From Kitasatospora sp. Root107 (lineage in GTDB: Bacteria; Actinomycetota; Actinomycetes; Streptomycetales; Streptomycetaceae), in the NCBI RefSeq assembly GCF_001424875.1, contig NZ_LMCT01000012.1, positions 441,864-505,863 on the forward strand: a stretch of 64,000 nucleotides of DNA, read 5' to 3'. A program made the translations under genes and the position numbers. Below, one piece after another: positions 41,001-53,058 of the stretch. Position 1 is the stretch's first letter, and each line of letters begins with the position of its first letter. The notes below the pieces were generated by a model. The model did not search any database. It was not told the origin of the DNA and saw only the letters and a program-made list of their open reading frames with translations.

Positions 41001-41007
41001 TTTGCGC

Positions 41008-41859
41008 GTGCCTTCTCTGCGTCAACCCGTGGGACCGCTGCCGGCCTCGATCTACTGGCGACGGCGCATCGTCGTGCTCGTGGCCCTGACAGCCCTCCTC
41101 GCGCTGGTCCTCTGGCTGGTCACGCGCCCCAGCGGCGACGGGAAATCCGGCCGGGGCAAGGCGGCCCAACCCGCCCCGGCCCAGTCGATCACCCCTGGCG
41201 CCGACCCCACCGGACCGGCGATCACCACCCGGCCGGGCGGCAGCGGCGGCTCCGGCGGCTCGACCGCCACCGGCGGGGTCTCGGGCTCCGGCGGCGGCGA
41301 GGTCAGCCTGACCACGGGCGGCACCGGGACTACGGGCACCGCAGGCACGTCAGGCACGTCTGGCACGGCGTCAGGCGGCGGCGCGGGTGGCACTTCGGGG
41401 GGCAGCAGCACTCCCCCTCCGGTGAACACCGCCGAGGTGATGGCCCTGCCGGTCTGCACCGCCTCCCAGGTCTCGCTGGAGCTGGCGGGCAGTCAGGACG
41501 CCTACAAGGCCAAGGACAAGCCCCGGCTCTCGCTCACCGTACGGAACACGTCCACGGGCACCTGCCGGGTCAACCTCGGCCGGACGGCCTCCACGGTGGT
41601 CGTCACCCTGGCCGAGTCCAACGAGCGGATCTGGTCCTCCGGCGACTGCCCGACGGAGCGTCAGGACACCTGGGTCCAGCTCGGCGCGGGCGCCGGCCTG
41701 ACCGAGACGTTCACCTGGGAGCGCGGTCGCAGCAAGCCCCAGTGCGCCACCCCGGACACCACCCCGGCCCCGGTCGGCCGCTACCTCGTCCAGGCCACCC
41801 TCAACGGCCCGGCGGGCGGCCCGGTTGCGGCCCGTACGTCGATCCGCCTGGAGGACTGA
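41008..41859 (+). CDS. Membrane-anchored protein with Gly/Ser/Thr linker
   Basis: A 283-residue conserved streptomycete protein of unknown function. A short cytoplasmic N-terminus (PSLRQPVGPLPASIYWRRR) precedes one transmembrane helix (about 22-40). A long Gly/Ser/Thr-rich extracellular linker follows (about 60-140, with repeats such as GTSGTSGTASGGGAGG). A small C-terminal beta domain (about 145-283) has four Cys that may form two disulphides (VCTAS, TCRVN, DCPTE, QCATP). The topology suggests an external domain held off the membrane. GTG 41008 follows a -10 by 7 nt. It converges on the MFS gene with a 9-nt gap. Confidence 0.8.
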   Translation: MPSLRQPVGPLPASIYWRRRIVVLVALTALLALVLWLVTRPSGDGKSGRGKAAQPAPAQSITPGADPTGPAITTRPGGSGGSGGSTATGGVSGSGGGEVSLTTGGTGTTGTAGTSGTSGTASGGGAGGTSGGSSTPPPVNTAEVMALPVCTASQVSLELAGSQDAYKAKDKPRLSLTVRNTSTGTCRVNLGRTASTVVVTLAESNERIWSSGDCPTERQDTWVQLGAGAGLTETFTWERGRSKPQCATPDTTPAPVGRYLVQATLNGPAGGPVAARTSIRLED

Positions 41860-43967: not shown

Positions 43968-45074
43968 TCAGACGTAGCGCTCCAGGATGGACGATTCTGC
44001 GAGCCGCGACAGCCCCTCGCGGACCGAGCGGGCCCGGGTCTCGCCGACGCCCTCGACCGTCTGCAGGTCGTCGATGCTGGCGGCCAGCAGCTTCTGCAGA
44101 CCGCCGAAGTGCTCGACCAGCCGCTCGATGACGGTGTTGGGCAGCCGGGGCACCTTGGCCAGCAGGCGGTAGCCGCGCGGCGAGACCGCCGAGTCCAGCG
44201 ACTCCGGCGTGCCGGGGTAGCCGAAGGCCTTGGCGACGGTCTGCAGGTCGAGCAGCTCCGCGTGGGTGAGCGCCTCCAGGTCGGCGAGCACCTCGGGGAC
44301 GGTCTTGCCGCGCTTGGCGGCCCGCTCGGGGAAGTAGTCCCGGGCGACCAGTTCGCGTTCGGGCTCGACGCCAGCGATCAGCTCGTCCAGCTGGAGCGAG
44401 AGCAGTCGGCCGTCGGTGCCGAGTTCGAGCACGTAGCCCGCGATCTCGGCCGCGATCAGCCGGACCATCTCCAGCCGCTGGGCGACCGCGGTGACGTCCC
44501 GGACGGTGACCAGGTCCTCGATCTCCAGCGCGGAGAGGGTGCCGGCCACCTCGTCGAGGCGGAGCTTGTAGCGCTCCAGGGTGGCCAGCGCCTGGTTGGC
44601 CCGGGAGAGCACGGTGGTGGAGTCCTCCAGCACCCGGCGGGTCCCGTTCACGTACATCGCGATCAGCCGCATCGAGTGCGAGACCGCGACCACCGGGAAG
44701 CCGGTCTGCCGGTTGACCCGCTCGGCGGTGCGGTGCCGGGTGCCGGTCTCGTCGGTGGGGATGGTCGAGTCGGGCATCAGGTGCACCCCAGCCCGGAGGA
44801 TCTTGGTGATGTCCTTGTCCAGGACCACCGCACCGTCCAGCTTGCACAGTTCGCGCAGCCGGGTGGCGGTGAACTCGACGTCCAGCACGAAGCCGCCGGT
44901 GGAGATGGAGTCCACCGTCTTGTCGAAGCCGAGCACGATCAGCCCGCCGGTGTTGGCCCGGAGCACCCGCTCCAGACCGTCGCGCAGACCCGTCCCCGGC
45001 GCGATGGCTGTGAGGGAAGCCCGCAGCAGGGCCTCCTCGCGGGGGGACTTGTCCGCCCGGTCGCTGGCTGCCAC
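43968..45074 (-). CDS. disA: Diadenylate cyclase DisA
   Basis: A 368-residue octameric enzyme making cyclic di-AMP and scanning DNA for branched structures. The N-terminal DAC domain has the catalytic DGA motif (Asp80-Gly81-Ala82 in CKLDGAVVL) and the RHR motif (113-115 in TRHRTAERV). A helical spine follows (about 150-290). The C-terminal helix-hairpin-helix domain has VEGVGETRARSVREGL. It starts at GTG 45074 with GGAGGAG upstream. It lies 123 nt after radA on the same strand, the conserved actinobacterial radA-disA order, and RadA is known to inhibit DisA in some species. Confidence 0.97.
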   Translation of the reverse strand: MAASDRADKSPREEALLRASLTAIAPGTGLRDGLERVLRANTGGLIVLGFDKTVDSISTGGFVLDVEFTATRLRELCKLDGAVVLDKDITKILRAGVHLMPDSTIPTDETGTRHRTAERVNRQTGFPVVAVSHSMRLIAMYVNGTRRVLEDSTTVLSRANQALATLERYKLRLDEVAGTLSALEIEDLVTVRDVTAVAQRLEMVRLIAAEIAGYVLELGTDGRLLSLQLDELIAGVEPERELVARDYFPERAAKRGKTVPEVLADLEALTHAELLDLQTVAKAFGYPGTPESLDSAVSPRGYRLLAKVPRLPNTVIERLVEHFGGLQKLLAASIDDLQTVEGVGETRARSVREGLSRLAESSILERYV

Positions 45075-45197: not shown

Positions 45198-46709
45198 TCA
45201 GTTGAGTTCTTCCGAGTCGACCGGTTCCCAGCCCTGCATGAGCTCCTCCGGGTAGGCCACGGCGGGTGCGGCGACCGGTGCCGGGCGCGGGGCGGGCGGG
45301 CCCCCGGCGGCCTCGGTACGGGGCTTCGCGGCGGCCTTGCGGCGGCCCGGGATGGCCCGCAGGGCCTCGCCGATGTCGGCCACCTCGACCACCTTCATCC
45401 CGCGCGGGACCTTGCCAGGATCCGGCGGGACCAGGGCGTGCGTGAAGCCCAGCCGGTGCGCCTCGGCGAGCCGCCGCTGAACACCCGTCACCCGGCGGAC
45501 CTCGCCCGCCAGGCCGACCTCGCCGATCGCCACCAGGCCGTTCGGCAGCGGGGTGTCCGAGGAGGAGCTGGCCACCGCGAGCGCGATCGCCAGGTCGGCG
45601 GACGGCTCGGTGAGCTTCACGCCGCCGACCGTCGCGGTGTAGATGTCCTGCTTGCCGAGCTTGACGCCGCCGTGCCGCTCGACCACCGCCAGGATCATCG
45701 CGATCCGGGGCGACTCCAGGCCGGAGGTGGTCCGGCGCGGGGACGGGATCTGCGAGTCGACCATCAGCGCCTGCACCTCGGCCACCAGCGGCCGGCGGCC
45801 CTCCAGGGTGACGGTCAGACAGGTACCGGGGACCGGCTTGTCACGCCGGGTCAGGAACAGCCCGGACGGGTCGGCCAGGCCGATGATGCCCTCGTCGTGC
45901 AGCTCGAAGCAGCCGACCTCGTCGGTGGCGCCGTAGCGGTTCTTGATGCCACGGATGATCCGCAGCCGGGCGTGCCGGTCACCCTCGAAGCTCAGCACCA
46001 CGTCCACCAGGTGCTCCAGCAGCCGGGGCCCGGCGATCGAACCGTCCTTGGTGACGTGGCCGACCAGCAGCGTCGCCATCCCGCGGTCCTTGGAGGCCCG
46101 GATCAGCGCACCCGCCACCTCGCGGACCTGGGCCGGACCGCCGGGCGCGCCGTCCAGCTCGGCGGAGGCGATGGTCTGCACCGAGTCCAGCACCAGCAGG
46201 CCGGGGTTGACCGCGTCGATGTGGCCGAGCACCGCACCGAGGTCGGACTCGGCGGCCAGGTAGAGGTGGTCGGAGAGCGCGTTGATCCGGTCGGCGCGCA
46301 GCCGGACCTGGCTGGCCGACTCCTCTCCGGTCACGTAGAGGGTGCGGTGCTGGTCACTGGCCGCCTTGGCCGCCACGTCCAGCAGCAGGGTCGACTTGCC
46401 GACACCGGGCTCGCCCGCCAGCAGCACCACCGCGCCGGGCACCAGGCCACCGCCGAGCACCCGGTCGAGCTCGGGTACGCCGGTGGTACGGGCGGTCGCG
46501 ACCTTGCCGTCGATCTGGCCGATCGGCATCGCGGGGGTGCTGACCGGGCCGGCGGCGGTGGTCCGGATCGGGACCGCGCCGTACTCCTCCACGGTGCCCC
46601 AGGCGTTGCACTCGGGGCAGCGGCCGACCCACTTGGGCAGTTGGTTGCCGCACTCGGTGCAGCGGTACGCCGGGCGAGCTTTGGCGGTGGTCTTGGTGCG
46701 GGCAGCCAT
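45198..46709 (-). CDS. radA: DNA repair protein RadA (Sms)
   Basis: A 503-residue RecA-related helicase that processes recombination intermediates. The N-terminal zinc finger has Cys17, Cys20, Cys31 and Cys34 (CTECGNQLPKWVGRCPEC). The Walker A is GEPGVGKST (about 97-105). The RadA-specific KNRFG motif is KNRYGATDE here. The C-terminal Lon protease-like domain (about 310-450) lacks proteolytic function in this family. The C-terminal tail is Pro/Ala-rich and longer than usual. It starts at ATG 46709, 7 nt after TACGGT, so it is probably leaderless. Confidence 0.97.
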   Translation of the reverse strand: MAARTKTTAKARPAYRCTECGNQLPKWVGRCPECNAWGTVEEYGAVPIRTTAAGPVSTPAMPIGQIDGKVATARTTGVPELDRVLGGGLVPGAVVLLAGEPGVGKSTLLLDVAAKAASDQHRTLYVTGEESASQVRLRADRINALSDHLYLAAESDLGAVLGHIDAVNPGLLVLDSVQTIASAELDGAPGGPAQVREVAGALIRASKDRGMATLLVGHVTKDGSIAGPRLLEHLVDVVLSFEGDRHARLRIIRGIKNRYGATDEVGCFELHDEGIIGLADPSGLFLTRRDKPVPGTCLTVTLEGRRPLVAEVQALMVDSQIPSPRRTTSGLESPRIAMILAVVERHGGVKLGKQDIYTATVGGVKLTEPSADLAIALAVASSSSDTPLPNGLVAIGEVGLAGEVRRVTGVQRRLAEAHRLGFTHALVPPDPGKVPRGMKVVEVADIGEALRAIPGRRKAAAKPRTEAAGGPPAPRPAPVAAPAVAYPEELMQGWEPVDSEELN

Positions 46710-46716
46710 GGGGCAC

Positions 46717-46722
46717 ACCGTA
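46717..46722 (-). promoter_or_regulatory. -10 element TACGGT for leaderless radA
   Basis: On the minus strand TACGGT ends 7 nt before the radA ATG, with no ribosome-binding site between. Confidence 0.55.
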
Positions 46723-46849
46723 GCGGCTGGCACCGACAAGTACTTCGGGGCTCGGAGTGGGTACCTCCCAAAGGTTCTCGGTCGGGTGGTGTTGTTACCC
46801 GAAAGAAGTACAAGGGGCCCGAATCAGCCCCGTCGTTCGGCCGGGTGCC

Positions 46850-46862: not shown

Positions 46863-48470
46863 GTGACGACTTCCCCCACGTCCACGGCGGCGGCCTACGA
46901 CCAGTACGCCGACGGGCTGTTCACGTACTGTCTCTCCGTTCTCTGCGAGCACGGCGCCACCGTTGCGGCGGTCCGCGAGGTGCGCGACCTCGCGCTGCGG
47001 CACGGCGAACGGCTGGCCGATCCGGCGTTGCGCCGGGCCTGGCTGTACTCGCTGGCGCGGCACTGCTGTCTGCAGCGGCTGGCCCAGGGCCAGCCGGCCC
47101 CTGGGCCTGAGCAGCGGCGGGAGCTGGCTTCACTGGCCTGGCCGGAGGCGGCCGGGACGCCGCCGGAGCAGCGCGAGGCGCTGGAGCTGGCGGTGCGCCA
47201 CCGGCTCGGGCCGGACGAGGTGGCCGCCGTGCTGGGGCTGTCCAGGGTGGCGGGTGACGAGCTGCTGGCCGCCGCCGAGGCGGAGGTGTGGCGGACCCGG
47301 GTCGCGCTGCTGGTGCTCGGCGTGGGCAGCTGCCCGGTGCTGGCCGAGCTGGGCGGGGCCGGGGCGGAGAGCTGGCGGGAGTGGGTGCTCGGCCCGGCGC
47401 TGCGCCGCGAGCTGGTCCGCCACCTGGTGGACTGCCCGACCTGCCGGGGTACGGCGGAGCGGGTCTCCGGCGAGCTGGGCCGCGGTCTGGCGGCACTGCC
47501 CGGGCTGCCCTTGCTGCCCGCGCCGGAGGAGCTGCGGGCCCGGATGGTGTCCCGGCGGCCGGCCGGGCCCGAGGAGGGCGCGCTCCGGTTCGACCAGCGG
47601 GGCTTCCCCCGGCACCGGGCGCCGAGTCGGCTCGGTGGTCTGGCGGTGCGTCAGCGGGTGGTGACCACGGGTGTGCTGGCGGCGGTGCTGACGGCTCCGG
47701 TGGTGGCGCTCTGGGGCGCGCACCGCAGCGATGACGGTGTGTCGGGGGCGGCGGCGGTCTCCTCGGTGCGGGTGGAGACGCCTGCGAAGCCGTCCGCCGG
47801 GCCGTCGGTCCGCGAGGTGCCGTCGGTCGGCTCGGAGCACGGCCTTGAGCTGGCCGGTTCGGTCACCACGGGCGCAGAAACGTTGCTGCCGTCCGTGCTG
47901 GGCCCGGCGGTCCAGGTGCCGGGACACGGTGCCACCCGGCTGGGCAACGCCACCCCCAGGCCGGAGGCCCCGGCCGAGGTGGTGCCTGCGGCTCCCGGCC
48001 AGTTGACCGTCGGGGCCCAGGAGTTCGGCGAGCGGACGGTGATCACCCTGGTCAACTCCGGTGGCACCACGATCCACTGGCACGCGGAGGTGGACGCCGA
48101 CTGGCTGCGGCTGAGCCGCGACTCCGGCACCCTGGCCCCGGCCCAGCGGATCACCGTCACCGTGACGGTCGATCAGTCCCGGGCCCCGGACCACCAGTGG
48201 CGGGCCCGGATCGCCCTGCCCCCGTCCCAGGCCGTGGTCACCCTGGAGGGCGGCCCTTCGGACCGGGGCATCCCGTCCCAGTCCCCCACCCCCGGGGCGA
48301 GCGACAGCCCGTCGCCGACGCCCAGCGGCTCCCCGAGCCCCTCGCCCAGCAGCACCCCGACCGGCTCGCCCGAGCCCGGCCCGAGCCCGACCTCCACCCC
48401 CGCCCCGACTCCAACCGGTTCGCCGTCCGCCTCGGCCCCGGCCTCCCCCGCCGCCCCGGAGACCCCGTGA
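46863..48470 (+). CDS. Membrane protein fusing a sigma-like region, HxxxCxxC motif and BACON-like domain
   Basis: A 535-residue protein. Residues 1-150 resemble a degenerate ECF sigma factor (YADGLFTYCLSVLCEHG, then HRLGPDEVAAVLGLS, a region 4-like helix-turn-helix). His187, Cys191 and Cys194 (HLVDCPTC) form a ZAS-like anti-sigma zinc motif. One transmembrane helix lies at about 265-285. Outside is a BACON-like beta domain (about 365-445, IHWHAEVDADWLRLSRDSGTL), then a Ser/Pro/Thr-rich tail. It is conserved in streptomycetes but its function is unknown. The layout suggests a membrane-bound regulator sensing an envelope or glycan cue. The GTG follows a -10 by 7 nt. Confidence 0.82.
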   Translation: MTTSPTSTAAAYDQYADGLFTYCLSVLCEHGATVAAVREVRDLALRHGERLADPALRRAWLYSLARHCCLQRLAQGQPAPGPEQRRELASLAWPEAAGTPPEQREALELAVRHRLGPDEVAAVLGLSRVAGDELLAAAEAEVWRTRVALLVLGVGSCPVLAELGGAGAESWREWVLGPALRRELVRHLVDCPTCRGTAERVSGELGRGLAALPGLPLLPAPEELRARMVSRRPAGPEEGALRFDQRGFPRHRAPSRLGGLAVRQRVVTTGVLAAVLTAPVVALWGAHRSDDGVSGAAAVSSVRVETPAKPSAGPSVREVPSVGSEHGLELAGSVTTGAETLLPSVLGPAVQVPGHGATRLGNATPRPEAPAEVVPAAPGQLTVGAQEFGERTVITLVNSGGTTIHWHAEVDADWLRLSRDSGTLAPAQRITVTVTVDQSRAPDHQWRARIALPPSQAVVTLEGGPSDRGIPSQSPTPGASDSPSPTPSGSPSPSPSSTPTGSPEPGPSPTSTPAPTPTGSPSASAPASPAAPETP

Positions 48471-49742: not shown

Positions 49743-50282
49743 TCAGTGCCCGGCCAGCTCGGCCAGCGAGTCGCCGAGCAGAGCGCGGAGGCGGACCAGC
49801 GCGCGGGAGCTCCGGGTACGTACGGCACCGGAGTTGGAGTGCAGGATCTCGGCGGTCTGCTCGATGCTGACGTCCTCCCAGTAGCGCAGCACCAGCACCG
49901 CCCGGTCCTGGGCGGAGAGTCGGGCGAGCGCTTCGAGCAGGGTCAGCCGCAGGGTGCCGTCGTCGCCGTCCGGCCCGGCCCGGTCGGGGAGTTCGCCGGT
50001 CGGGCGCTCGGTACTGCTGCGCCGTCGCTGGTGGCTCAGGTAGGTGCGGAACAGGACCCGCTGGGCGTACCCGGCCGGGTTGTCGATCGACCGGCCGCCG
50101 AGCAGCCAGCCGGAGCGGCGCCAGAGCGCGTACATCCGGCCGAGGGTCTCCTGCACCAGGTCCTCGGCGAGGTGGGTGTCCCCGCCGGTCAGCAGACAGG
50201 CCGAGCGGTAGAGCTGGCCCGCGCCTGCCGCCGCGAACTCCAGGTACCGCTCGTCCCGGTCGCGCCCGCTCCGGTTTCCCAC
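49743..50282 (-). CDS. SigE-family ECF RNA polymerase sigma factor
   Basis: A 179-residue extracytoplasmic-function sigma factor. Region 2 is about residues 8-75 (FAAAGAGQLYRSACLLTGGDTHLAEDLVQETLGRMY, with the conserved region 2.2 helix). Region 4 is about 115-170 (LARLSAQDRAVLVLRYWEDVSIEQTAEILHSNSGAVRTRSSRALVRLRALL). It belongs to the streptomycete SigE-like/SACE group. The following gene encodes a membrane protein that may control it. The start is taken as GTG 50282, with GGGGGAG 8 nt upstream; GTGs at 50288 and 50291 are alternatives. Confidence 0.9.
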   Translation of the reverse strand: MGNRSGRDRDERYLEFAAAGAGQLYRSACLLTGGDTHLAEDLVQETLGRMYALWRRSGWLLGGRSIDNPAGYAQRVLFRTYLSHQRRRSSTERPTGELPDRAGPDGDDGTLRLTLLEALARLSAQDRAVLVLRYWEDVSIEQTAEILHSNSGAVRTRSSRALVRLRALLGDSLAELAGH

Positions 50283-50371
50283 CCTCACCACTCCCCCGCC
50301 TGCTGCCACCTGCTCACACCTGTCTGACGCGGTGAAGGCTGCGGGGTGTTACAGCGAGGCGAAGAGTACGG

Positions 50372-51706
50372 TCAGCGCGGCTGCAGCGGCGGCAGCCGGT
50401 ACGTACCGTCCAGGACGGCGGCGCCCGGCTGGTAGAGCCGGATCACCGGGCGGAAGTCCCCTTCGGGGGCGGGCAGCCAGTTGGCCGCCTCGGCCGGGTC
50501 CTCCGGCCGCCGGTGCTGGACCACCAGGGTGAGCGAGCCGTCCGGTGCGTACACCAGGCCCGGCGTGCGGTCGCCGATCGAATAGCGGTCGATCGGGTTG
50601 GCCACCAGGTAGTAGTCGGTGGCGTCGTACATGGTGAGCGACCAGAACGCGTCCACCGGCGGCGGTTCCTCGAAGCGCAGGGTGTACGAGCGAGCGCCGG
50701 TGAGCGTCCTCCCCTCGGCGTCCTGGACAGTCATCGCGTACGCCGCCTCGTAGGCGTGGTTGCCCCAGAGCCCGGTCCGGGCGGCGACCGCGCGGGTCAG
50801 GTAGGCGGCCCGGCGGTCGGGGATCCGCCACTGCGGGTCGTCCAGGGTGCCGGGGCCGAAGTGGTCCAGGTTGTAGTCGAAGAGGTGCAGGTTCAGCACC
50901 CACTCGCCGCCCGGCAGGTCGGGGTCGGGGCGGCCTGCCTCCTCGACCCGGCGGCGGCCCTCGGCCAGGCCGGTGGCCAGCGCGGTCGCCCAGTCGGGGG
51001 CGGGGTTGCGGTAGGGCGAGGCGCCGACGTCCAGCAGACCGAGCGGGGCGAACCGCTGCTGGTACTCGACATCGGGCGCGGCAGGCGGGAACTGTGCCAT
51101 CCAGAGCCGGAGTTGCTCCAGGAAGCGGAGCTGCTCCGGCACCTCGGGGTCGGGCTCGGGCAGGCCCGCGTACACCCCGCCCGGCTCCAGCGGGGTCAGG
51201 GTCAGTCGGCGCTGGAGCTCGCGCACCCGGGGCAGGTCGGCCGGCCCCTCACAGGCGTTGCGGCCCACCACGGTGGCGACCGTGGTCGGGCACTCGATCA
51301 CCTCGAGCCCGGGCTCGGGGGTGCCGTGCCAGTGCGGGGGCACCAGCAGGCGGCGCTGCGCACCGGTGCCGGTGGCCCGGCGGCCCAGGTAGGCGAAGTT
51401 GTCGGTCCAGGCGTCGACGAACTGGAGCACCAGGTAGGCGCCGTCGGTGTCCGGCACGTCCAGAACCAACGGGCCGCCGGAGAGGTCGAGTTGGGCGACC
51501 GAGTAGACGGTGTCGTTGTTCACGGAGACGAACTCGGTCCCGGCCGTGGCGAGTCGGTCGGCGTGGCCGAAGCGGTTGAAGTCGGTGGCGGGCAGGCTGC
51601 CCATGCCCTGTCGTCGGCACCGGTCGACCATGGTGAGGTCGAAAACCATCGGGTAGCCGTAGACGTAGGCGTCGGCCGCCAGGGCTTCGAGATTGGCCTC
51701 GATCAT
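50372..51706 (-). CDS. DUF1254/DUF1214 domain protein (second of a tandem pair)
   Basis: A 444-residue protein containing DUF1254 (about 1-130: YVYGYPMVFDLT, VNNDTVYSVAQLDLSGGPLVLDVPD) and DUF1214 (about 300-440: FWSLTMYDATDYYLVANPIDRYSIGDRTPGL). These domains have no proven function, although the beta-rich fold and W-L-PAP motifs recur across bacteria and fungi. There is no signal peptide. It is a paralogue of the upstream gene and starts in its stop codon (ATGA at 51703-51706), so the two are translated together and may form a heteromer. Confidence 0.85.
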   Translation of the reverse strand: MIEANLEALAADAYVYGYPMVFDLTMVDRCRRQGMGSLPATDFNRFGHADRLATAGTEFVSVNNDTVYSVAQLDLSGGPLVLDVPDTDGAYLVLQFVDAWTDNFAYLGRRATGTGAQRRLLVPPHWHGTPEPGLEVIECPTTVATVVGRNACEGPADLPRVRELQRRLTLTPLEPGGVYAGLPEPDPEVPEQLRFLEQLRLWMAQFPPAAPDVEYQQRFAPLGLLDVGASPYRNPAPDWATALATGLAEGRRRVEEAGRPDPDLPGGEWVLNLHLFDYNLDHFGPGTLDDPQWRIPDRRAAYLTRAVAARTGLWGNHAYEAAYAMTVQDAEGRTLTGARSYTLRFEEPPPVDAFWSLTMYDATDYYLVANPIDRYSIGDRTPGLVYAPDGSLTLVVQHRRPEDPAEAANWLPAPEGDFRPVIRLYQPGAAVLDGTYRLPPLQPR

Positions 51707-53058
51707 GCCCCGACCACCTCCGGCTCGCGCGGGGTGAGCGGCGGGATGGTCCAAGTCCCGTCCAGGACACGCTGGTCGGGGCCGTAGAGCCGGATGACGA
51801 TGCTGAACGGACCGTCGGGGGCGGGCAGCCAGTTGGCACTGTGCTCGGCGTTGGCCGGGCGCTTGTGCCGGACGTGCAGGGTCAGGCCGCCGTCCGGGTC
51901 GTACACCAGACCCGGGGTGCGATCGCCGATCGAGTACCGCTGCAGCGGGTTGTCCACCAGCAGCCGGTCGGGCAGGCCGTACATGGTGGCGGACCAGAAG
52001 AACCGGGCCGGGGGCAGCCGGTCGGGCGGGAAGTGCAGCACGTAGTCGCGGTCCGAGGCGTTCGGCGGGCGGTTGCCCTCGCTGTCGGCCACCCAGCCGC
52101 CGTACCAGGCCTCGGCGGACGGCAGGCCGTACAGGCCCTTGTAGGCGCCGACCGCACGCTTCAGGAAGTCCTCGCCCAGCTCGGCCCGGGTGCCGAACAG
52201 GCCGGTGTTGCCGACCGTCCCGGCGGCGGCCCGCTCCAGCTCCGCCCGGCCGTCCGCGATGCCCTGGGTGACCGACTCGCGCAGCTCGGCGGTCAGCGTG
52301 GCGGGCTCGAAGTCCCCGCCACCGATGCCGAGTTCGGCCAGTCGGCGGCGCAGGTCCAGCTCGGCGGGGAGGGCGGTGCCGGCCGGCCGGGCCGGGAAGA
52401 AGCCGAGCAGGAAGTCCAGCAGGACGAAGAACTCCAGGGTGTCCCGGATCTCCTCCCGCCAGACCGGCCAGACCGGCTCGGGAGCGGCGGGCGGCGGCTC
52501 GGCGCCCCGGTGCGCGCTGAGCGGCCGAAGGGCGTACTGCTGCTGGATCCGCTCCAGCTCGGGGACGTCCTCCGGGCCGGCCAGGTAGGTGCGGCCGACG
52601 ATGCCGACCAGCTCGGTGTCGGCGCGCAGCACCCCGTCGAAGCCGTCCGCCGGGACGTCCCGGTGCCCGGGCCCGGTGACCAGGTAGCGGCCGGCCGACC
52701 CGCCGGTGGTGCGGGTGCCGACGAAGCCGACGTACGGGGTGTCCAGGTCGTGCAGCGGGATCACGTAGTAGCGGTCCACGGCCGGGACCTCGATCACCCA
52801 CGGCTCGGCCCGCAGGTCGAGCCAGGCCCAGGAGTACGGGGTGTCGTTGTTCGGGGTGACCACGTCGGTGTTGGCCGGGGTAGAGGGCTGCGGGTAGTGC
52901 CGGAACACACCGAAGCCGCCGACGTACCGCGGATCCGCCTGGTCGACGGCCTGCGGGTAGAGGGTGCGGTAGTTCTCCAACAGGCTGAATCCCCAGATCC
53001 AGCCCTCCGCCGCCGTCCTGCGCACCGTCGCCGGATCCACCAGTACCGGGTTTCCCAT
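51703..53058 (-). CDS. DUF1254/DUF1214 domain protein (first of a tandem pair)
   Basis: A 451-residue paralogue of the following gene. Domain DUF1254 is near 15-140 (GWIWGFSLLENYRTLY, VTPNNDTPYSWAWLDLRAEPWVIEVP). DUF1214 is near 310-450 (FFWSATMYGLPDRLLVDNPLQRYSIGDRTPGLVYD). The two proteins share PNNDT/VNNDT, YSIGDRTPGLVY and SANWLPAPDGPF/AANWLPAPEGDF. It has no signal peptide. It starts at ATG 53058. Function is unknown. It is divergent from an epimerase-like gene by about 170 nt. Confidence 0.85.
   Translation of the reverse strand: MGNPVLVDPATVRRTAAEGWIWGFSLLENYRTLYPQAVDQADPRYVGGFGVFRHYPQPSTPANTDVVTPNNDTPYSWAWLDLRAEPWVIEVPAVDRYYVIPLHDLDTPYVGFVGTRTTGGSAGRYLVTGPGHRDVPADGFDGVLRADTELVGIVGRTYLAGPEDVPELERIQQQYALRPLSAHRGAEPPPAAPEPVWPVWREEIRDTLEFFVLLDFLLGFFPARPAGTALPAELDLRRRLAELGIGGGDFEPATLTAELRESVTQGIADGRAELERAAAGTVGNTGLFGTRAELGEDFLKRAVGAYKGLYGLPSAEAWYGGWVADSEGNRPPNASDRDYVLHFPPDRLPPARFFWSATMYGLPDRLLVDNPLQRYSIGDRTPGLVYDPDGGLTLHVRHKRPANAEHSANWLPAPDGPFSIVIRLYGPDQRVLDGTWTIPPLTPREPEVVGA

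Follow-up and report, generated by a model that had tools for sequence, protein, structure and literature searches.

Locus and gene neighbourhood

The window, a stretch of 64,000 nucleotides from Kitasatospora sp. Root107, carries on its forward strand a gene that is divergent from radA. The following features were assigned to this gene, to its product (the Root107 protein) and to the two neighbours on the other side.

43968..45074, minus strand: disA, next after radA (NF010009, 514.7 bits, cut-off 201)
45198..46739, minus strand: radA, divergent neighbour (TIGR00416, 507 bits, cut-off 403)
46863..48470, plus strand: whole gene, 535 amino acids, GTG start (an alternative GTG lies 6 codons upstream, at 46845)
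46884..47087, plus strand: putative pseudo-sigma region 2, residues 8–75 (profile alignment to 28 ECFs), Asp and Gln of region 2.2 lost
47154..47300, plus strand: putative pseudo-sigma region 4, residues 98–146 (Pfam, profile alignment, residue counts), recognition helix no longer basic
47310..47477, plus strand: predicted RsiW-like zinc anti-sigma domain, residues 150–205 (family profile against PDB: RsiW, RslA)
47331..47333, plus strand: Cys157, first putative zinc ligand (31/31 Streptomycetaceae, 21/21 relatives)
47421..47444, plus strand: HxxxCxxC, residues 187–194 (motif search, conserved in homologues)
47523..47546, plus strand: segment PEELRARM resembling anti-sigma helix 4, residues 221–228, kept in the Root107 protein
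47589..47609, plus strand: juxtamembrane FDxxGFP segment, residues 243–249 (pattern counts in homologues)
47658..47714, plus strand: single membrane span, residues 266–284 (hydropathy; N-terminus predicted inside)
47988..48254, plus strand: predicted extracytoplasmic BACON_2 domain, Pfam match 376–440, conservation to about residue 464 (Pfam, homologue alignment)
48258..48467, plus strand: Pro/Ser/Thr-rich C-terminal tail, fast-evolving (translation, dN/dS)

The GC content at the three codon positions of 46863–48470 (0.77/0.63/0.93) fits the coding frame. Residues 1–215 match 292 of 297 Streptomycetaceae genomes and 17 of 17 genera (E 0.001; the count is of sequence matches), in agreement with the initial annotation, which had described the gene as conserved in streptomycetes. 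A scan of genome contigs yielded 18 loci, all in Kitasatospora or Streptomyces records. In a sample of the class comprising 394 genomes, 93 had a match at E 1e-5, and 40 of these, by a count of the listing, belong to the family of the window.

Of 45 loci whose surroundings were compared, 41 show radA and the gene in divergent orientation, with disA beyond radA in 40 of the 41. The remaining four are two loci at a contig edge (L012, L021) and two that are not orthologues at this locus (L027 from Nonomuraea and L083). No report on the radA-divergent gene was found in the open-licence full-text literature, which was searched without the model-strain locus tag. Two tandem copies follow radA in seven loci from two other families of the order (L078–L082, L084, L085). 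The shorter one, type A, showed no recognised external domain in the one copy tested; the other, type B with BACON, is the orthologue of the Root107 gene. The type-A paralogue is also degenerate in its sigma part, and its copies in L078, L079 and L080 lack HxxxCxxC. In Kitasatospora sp. DSM 101779 (L023, 6001–7120) the orthologue looks broken, with the start and the membrane/BACON part in different frames and the middle unmatched. The lesion may be natural or may stem from faulty assembly.

Several nearby genes were considered as partners. Downstream, 24 of the 45 loci encode a Cys-rich protein of about 285 amino acids (e.g. L089, 4180–4917), and all but one of these 24 have it on the opposite strand. 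It was rejected as an operon partner because it is convergent, and it was not found in the window or in the Kitasatospora-type loci L009–L023. A convergent 401-aa gene, which has no Pfam family, and a SigE-type gene at 49743–50309 were also rejected. Since the former was matched in 1 of 45 loci (L023) and the latter in 2 of 45 (L023 and L086, E below 1e-20), neither is predicted to form a conserved system with the gene. In 35 upstream regions, one of just 101 bases, a SigR-type pattern (GGGAAN-N17-19-GTT) and a TTGAC-type pattern had no match, and no clear conserved block was seen within the viewed part of their alignment.

Two further observations concern the surroundings. Between mutY and disA, positions 41002–41859 (plus strand) encode a protein of 285 amino acids that matched no Pfam family at E 0.01; many loci of the order have a relative at the equivalent position. 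The product looks like another membrane-anchored envelope protein of the radA-disA cluster. At 50372–51838 and 51703–53058 (minus strand) lie adjacent DUF1254/DUF1214 paralogues, which overlap as extracted.

Membrane span, external domain and selection

One membrane span and an external BACON-like domain had been read from the sequence initially, and both were recovered. The span at residues 266–284 has a mean hydropathy of 2.04, with seven Lys/Arg in the preceding 26 residues versus three in the following 26, and the N-terminus is accordingly predicted inside. A second hydrophobic stretch at residues 147–166 (hydropathy 1.81), which overlaps the putative zinc ligand Cys157, is probably not a membrane span. 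BACON_2 (PF19190) matches residues 376–440 with 35.1 bits against a Pfam gathering cut-off of 25 and is the sole Pfam match above cut-off in the protein. An AlphaFold model of the BACON region from 14 sequences was too weak to settle the fold (mean pLDDT 50.9), and Foldseek returned nothing usable with this low-confidence model (best E 0.93).

As described in PMC11216935, BACON is a carbohydrate-binding domain by name, with mucin as predicted substrate, and it occurs in 929 proteins of Actinomycetota, 16% of the domain-bearing proteins. Hence, BACON_2 is not rare in Actinomycetota. The match by itself is no proof of polysaccharide binding.

For the comparison of homologues, 104 sequences of at least 260 amino acids were reduced to 44 below 75% identity. 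L021 and L053 were left out for an incomplete N-terminus and L023 was dropped by length. The final set contains 35 orthologues (31 from Streptomycetaceae and four deep ones), four type-A proteins and three outgroup sequences. The 31 Streptomycetaceae proteins comprise 15 from loci L087–L106 and 16 others, mostly from the genus of the window. A further 21 proteins from other families of the same class are referred to as relatives. The juxtamembrane pattern [FL][DTGE]xxGFP occurs in 28 of 31 Streptomycetaceae proteins, 4 of 4 deep orthologues and 9 of 21 relatives.

In the comparison with the closest genome (L086), the dN/dS values are 0.18 for sigma2, 0.06 for sigma4, 0.08 for the zinc part and 0.13 for BACON, as against 0.45 for the sigma2-sigma4 linker, 0.30 for the external linker and 0.59 for the tail. 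Four more distant pairs gave higher and noisier values (sigma2 0.22–0.38, sigma4 0.30–0.53, zinc part 0.19–0.68, BACON 0.32–0.62). Judged by the size of the ratios, the pattern suggests that selection maintains the degenerate sigma part.

Part of these data would be accounted for by an envelope protein with a mainly structural or anchoring role. BACON and the Pro-rich linkers would then serve as a spacer and the cytoplasmic part as a zinc-stabilised anchor, with no signalling involved. DUF1735 and BACON have indeed been proposed to act as membrane-bound spacers (PMC11216935), and the external linker and the tail evolve fast. However, sigma4 and the zinc part are among the slowest-evolving parts in the closest pair, and all four putative zinc ligands are invariant in the 31 Streptomycetaceae proteins, which suggests more than an anchor. 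We regard the mainly structural role as improbable.

Sigma ancestry and the zinc domain

Compared singly with Pfam, the Root107 protein matches Sigma70_r4_2 with 15.3 bits (cut-off 25.7) and zf-HC2 with 11.9 bits, both below cut-off, and has no Sigma70_r2 match at E 1. Sigma models of NCBIfam match weakly at residues 8–86 and 98–140 (E 0.005 or worse). Because these single-sequence matches are weak and lie below the curated cut-offs, the initial wording of a degenerate sigma-like segment is fair. At the family level the homology became firm. A profile of the 35 orthologues was compared with one of 28 ECFs from the same genome, i.e. 30 region-4 loci minus L113 (wrong frame) and L136 (WhiG-like by reading). 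This gave a probability of 98.1, an E-value of 8.6e-14 and a score of 91.0 over 149 columns; 30 column-shuffled control profiles reached a probability of at most 0.8 and a score of at most 17.6.

Bridging homologues were found by tblastn, namely an annotated RNA polymerase sigma factor of Thermomicrobium roseum (residues 12–203, 29.8%, E 4e-10) and a Nonomuraea protein (residues 9–194, 32.5%, E 1e-11). Both bridge proteins and L083 pass the Pfam cut-offs for sigma regions 2 and 4. The orthologue L081 at the radA locus has both Sigma70_r2 and BACON_2 above cut-off. A profile of 25 proteins (the Root107 protein and 24 relatives) found the structures of AlgU, SigW and SigE at E below 1e-16; this profile mainly tests the relatives, most of which have recognisable sigma domains.

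Structure prediction contributed less. The AlphaFold model of residues 1–220 from 14 sequences was too weak to settle the fold (mean pLDDT 46.7). With this low-confidence model, the best 30 Foldseek rows were all ECF sigma factors or PhyR by title; the best E-value was 0.049, none of the 30 was below 0.001, and the score also uses sequence. VIA-align placed sigma region 4 first (Z 7.1), with unrelated HTH proteins within 2 Z.

The weak model and the single-sequence matches below all curated cut-offs would be expected if the sigma resemblance had arisen by chance in a helical, alanine-rich region. This is refuted in practice by the profile comparison with its shuffled controls and by the bridging homologues, and we consider a chance resemblance extremely improbable. 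Judged from the profiles, the N-terminus is homologous to a whole ECF sigma factor, and common ancestry over regions 2 and 4 is well supported.

In the tree, the 14 type-B rows stand together (99/99) within a group that also contains type A, L083, Nonomuraea and Thermomicrobium (86/95). The fusions L141 (ECF52-like), L142 and L144 from the same genome fall outside this group; L141 sits on a long branch and its placement is unsure. With type A supported at 49/15, types A and B may or may not have arisen by one duplication.

The zinc motif HxxxCxxC is located exactly where it had been placed at first, at residues 187–194. It is not expected by chance, because it appears in just 35 of 20000 shuffles of the protein and is conserved in homologues. 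None of the 31 Streptomycetaceae proteins, the four deep orthologues or the 21 relatives lacks any of the four putative ligands (C157, H187, C191, C194). When a zinc-region profile built from 37 members was compared with the PDB, RsiW (E 0.0014) and RslA (E 0.0071) were the two best matches. RslA is named here by the entry title; the chain is titled conserved membrane protein. Next came a collagen chain (0.015), the DdvA anti-sigma factor (0.043) and two further collagen chains, the collagen matches being taken as chance. With Hx3Cx2C and an upstream ligand, the motif belongs to an anti-sigma-type (ZAS) domain that would bind zinc. RsiW and RslA share the HxxxCxxC region with the Root107 protein, but they are separate proteins acting on a partner sigma factor, whereas the zinc domain described here is fused behind the pseudo-sigma part. 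Profiles and bridging homologues together show that the protein consists of an ECF sigma factor, now diverged, with an RsiW-like zinc anti-sigma domain behind it.

According to Casas-Pastor et al. (PMC7406223), anti-sigma helix 4 covers sigma regions 2.1–2.2 and helix 1 covers the -35-binding part of sigma4. The final part of the RsiW match falls on the segment past the zinc motif. A strict helix-4 motif is found in 1 of 31 Streptomycetaceae proteins (the Root107 protein only), in 4 of 4 deep orthologues and in 18 of 21 relatives. The count is 9/31 versus 19/21 with a looser motif and 16/31 versus 20/21 with the loosest; all these motifs were composed after viewing the relatives, and the size of any loss is motif-dependent.

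Decay of the sigma part and proposed mode of action

Consensus residues of regions 2.2 and 4.2 are not retained in the family of the Root107 protein (Streptomycetaceae). The Asp/Glu of region 2.2 (position 35) is present in 1/31 Streptomycetaceae proteins, 13/21 relatives and 28/28 ECFs of the same genome. The respective counts are 0/31, 6/21 and 25/28 for Gln38, 6/31, 17/21 and 28/28 for a basic residue 137, and 1/31, 17/21 and 13/28 for a basic residue 139. Position 132 is an exception with the opposite trend (basic in 16/31, 1/21 and 25/28). The mean charge of the recognition helix is −0.71 in Streptomycetaceae, +1.81 in the relatives and +2.71 in the ECFs, but the ECFs came from among the top matches to the canonical region-4 model and exaggerate the contrast, so that the relatives, which also vary, are the fairer comparison.

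Among the four deep orthologues, three have the region 2.2 acid, none Gln38, one a basic 137 and none a basic 139, with a helix charge of −0.50; the four type-A proteins have identical counts and a charge of −0.25. Decay of the sigma part is graded, since the region 2.2 acid is absent in 8 of the 21 relatives and the deep orthologues keep it in 3 of 4 at an already negative charge. In L180, L183, L185 and L191, from other families of the class, the region 2.2 acid is missing and the charge of the recognition helix is zero or negative. This points to the possibility that the sigma part decayed more than once.

Extra cysteines were observed in pseudo-sigma region 2. C23, C28 and C69 are invariant in 14 sequences (the Root107 gene, L009–L020 and L022), and C69 is present in all 31 Streptomycetaceae proteins. 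A redox or metal role is possible for them.

Receptors in which a sigma and an anti-sigma factor are fused are already known, hence the presentation of the combination as unprecedented does not hold. A review (PMC8999054) lists ECF48, ECF52 and ECF53 as sigma-ZAS fusions. In SCO4117 of Streptomyces coelicolor, reported in 2018 as the first characterised ECF52 member, the sigma domain is followed by a zinc finger, a span, a Pro-rich region and a carbohydrate module; the null strain was more impaired than one that retained the truncated sigma part alone (PMC5826349). Carbohydrate modules of ECF52 and ECF53 are given in PMC10766802 as predictions, without experiments.

Other fusions are encoded in the same genome. 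L141, the ECF52-like one, has sigma regions 2 and 4 and NPCBM above cut-off. L142 combines sigma region 2 with AbfB, has no region 4 match and might be of the ECF48/ECF53 kind. L144 is a sigma-ZAS fusion that contains a run of N.

The Root107 protein resembles SCO4117 and L141 in carrying, on a single chain, a sigma part, a zinc finger, a span, a Pro-rich region and an external module. In ECF52 proteins, however, the sigma domains are recognisable and the external module is a carbohydrate module (NPCBM in L141), whereas here a degenerate sigma part is combined with BACON. Membership in ECF52 was rejected, as the external domain is BACON_2 and not NPCBM and the tree separates the protein from L141 (fork 86/95, L141 on its long branch). 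ECF48 and ECF53, compared by description only, also have a C-terminal ZAS-like fusion with one or two spans (PMC8999054).

Closer counterparts are L186, L194, L196 and L197 from other actinobacterial families. They share the domain order and the four zinc ligands, but have Sigma70_r2 as well as BACON_2 above cut-off, i.e. their region 2 is recognisable, unlike that of the Root107 protein. In L190, BACON_2 is below cut-off. At E 0.01, Sigma70_r2 is found in 21 and BACON_2 in 5 of the 25 proteins (24 relatives and the Root107 protein). What is unusual here is the decay of the sigma part. The initial idea of a sigma and an anti-sigma factor fused in cis fits the presumed ancestor and living relatives; in Streptomycetaceae, where the 2.2/4.2 positions are lost, a sigma factor that works is less likely.

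A strongly diverged ECF sigma factor that still works has nevertheless to be considered. A BACON signal would trigger regulated proteolysis, and the freed N-terminus would bind RNA polymerase. The domain order is that of ECF52 and other fusions in the genome, the sigma segments are conserved in the closest pair (L086) and the helix-4-like segment is retained in the Root107 protein. Proteolytic release is also the published model for such fusions; it is proposed for ECF52 and, according to the review (PMC8999054), experimentally characterised for IutY as the only case. However, the consensus positions of regions 2.2 and 4.2 and the charge of the recognition helix are lost. Because of this loss, a working sigma factor is less likely in Streptomycetaceae, and we regard it as a doubtful, if serious, candidate. 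A parallel decay of the polymerase-facing surface and its presumed masking helix possibly fits a sigma part that needs no restraint.

We lean, with modest confidence, towards a single-pass receptor derived from an ECF sigma-zinc anti-sigma fusion of the ECF52/ECF53-like kind, whose pseudo-sigma part now signals by protein contact. Starting from an ancestor that joined an ECF sigma factor and its cognate zinc anti-sigma domain in one chain, the Streptomycetaceae proteins would have turned the sigma half into a pseudo-sigma domain that kept core positions and lost the region 2.2 acid and Gln together with the basic 4.2 helix. The BACON domain would sense the cell envelope. From there the signal would presumably reach the cytoplasmic pseudo-sigma4/zinc module, which would act through contact with other proteins and might, for instance, hold or release a sigma or anti-sigma partner; the N-terminus would not be set free as a sigma factor.

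In PhyR, a protein that carries a receiver domain, a sigma-like domain binds an anti-sigma factor rather than starting transcription. The PhyR entries among the Foldseek matches are titled anti-anti-sigma. PhyR has no membrane span, unlike the Root107 protein, in which no receiver-domain Pfam match was found at E 1, and the likeness is an analogy only. A more specific form of the contact model, which we put forward quite tentatively, makes the protein a dead-sigma decoy, found throughout Streptomycetaceae, and a membrane-bound counterpart of PhyR partner switching. BACON signals would switch capture and release of a sigma or anti-sigma factor in trans by the pseudo-sigma4/zinc module, tied by its locus to radA-disA and thereby to DNA repair and c-di-AMP.

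If the proposed single-pass receptor is right, a sigma factor would have been turned into a signalling scaffold, dropping its transcription-initiating function and keeping the sensor and the zinc module. Fused sigma/anti-sigma receptors are known but little studied, and the family concerned is one of antibiotic producers. The finding also provides a precise genetic target, a single gene beside radA in laboratory Streptomyces.
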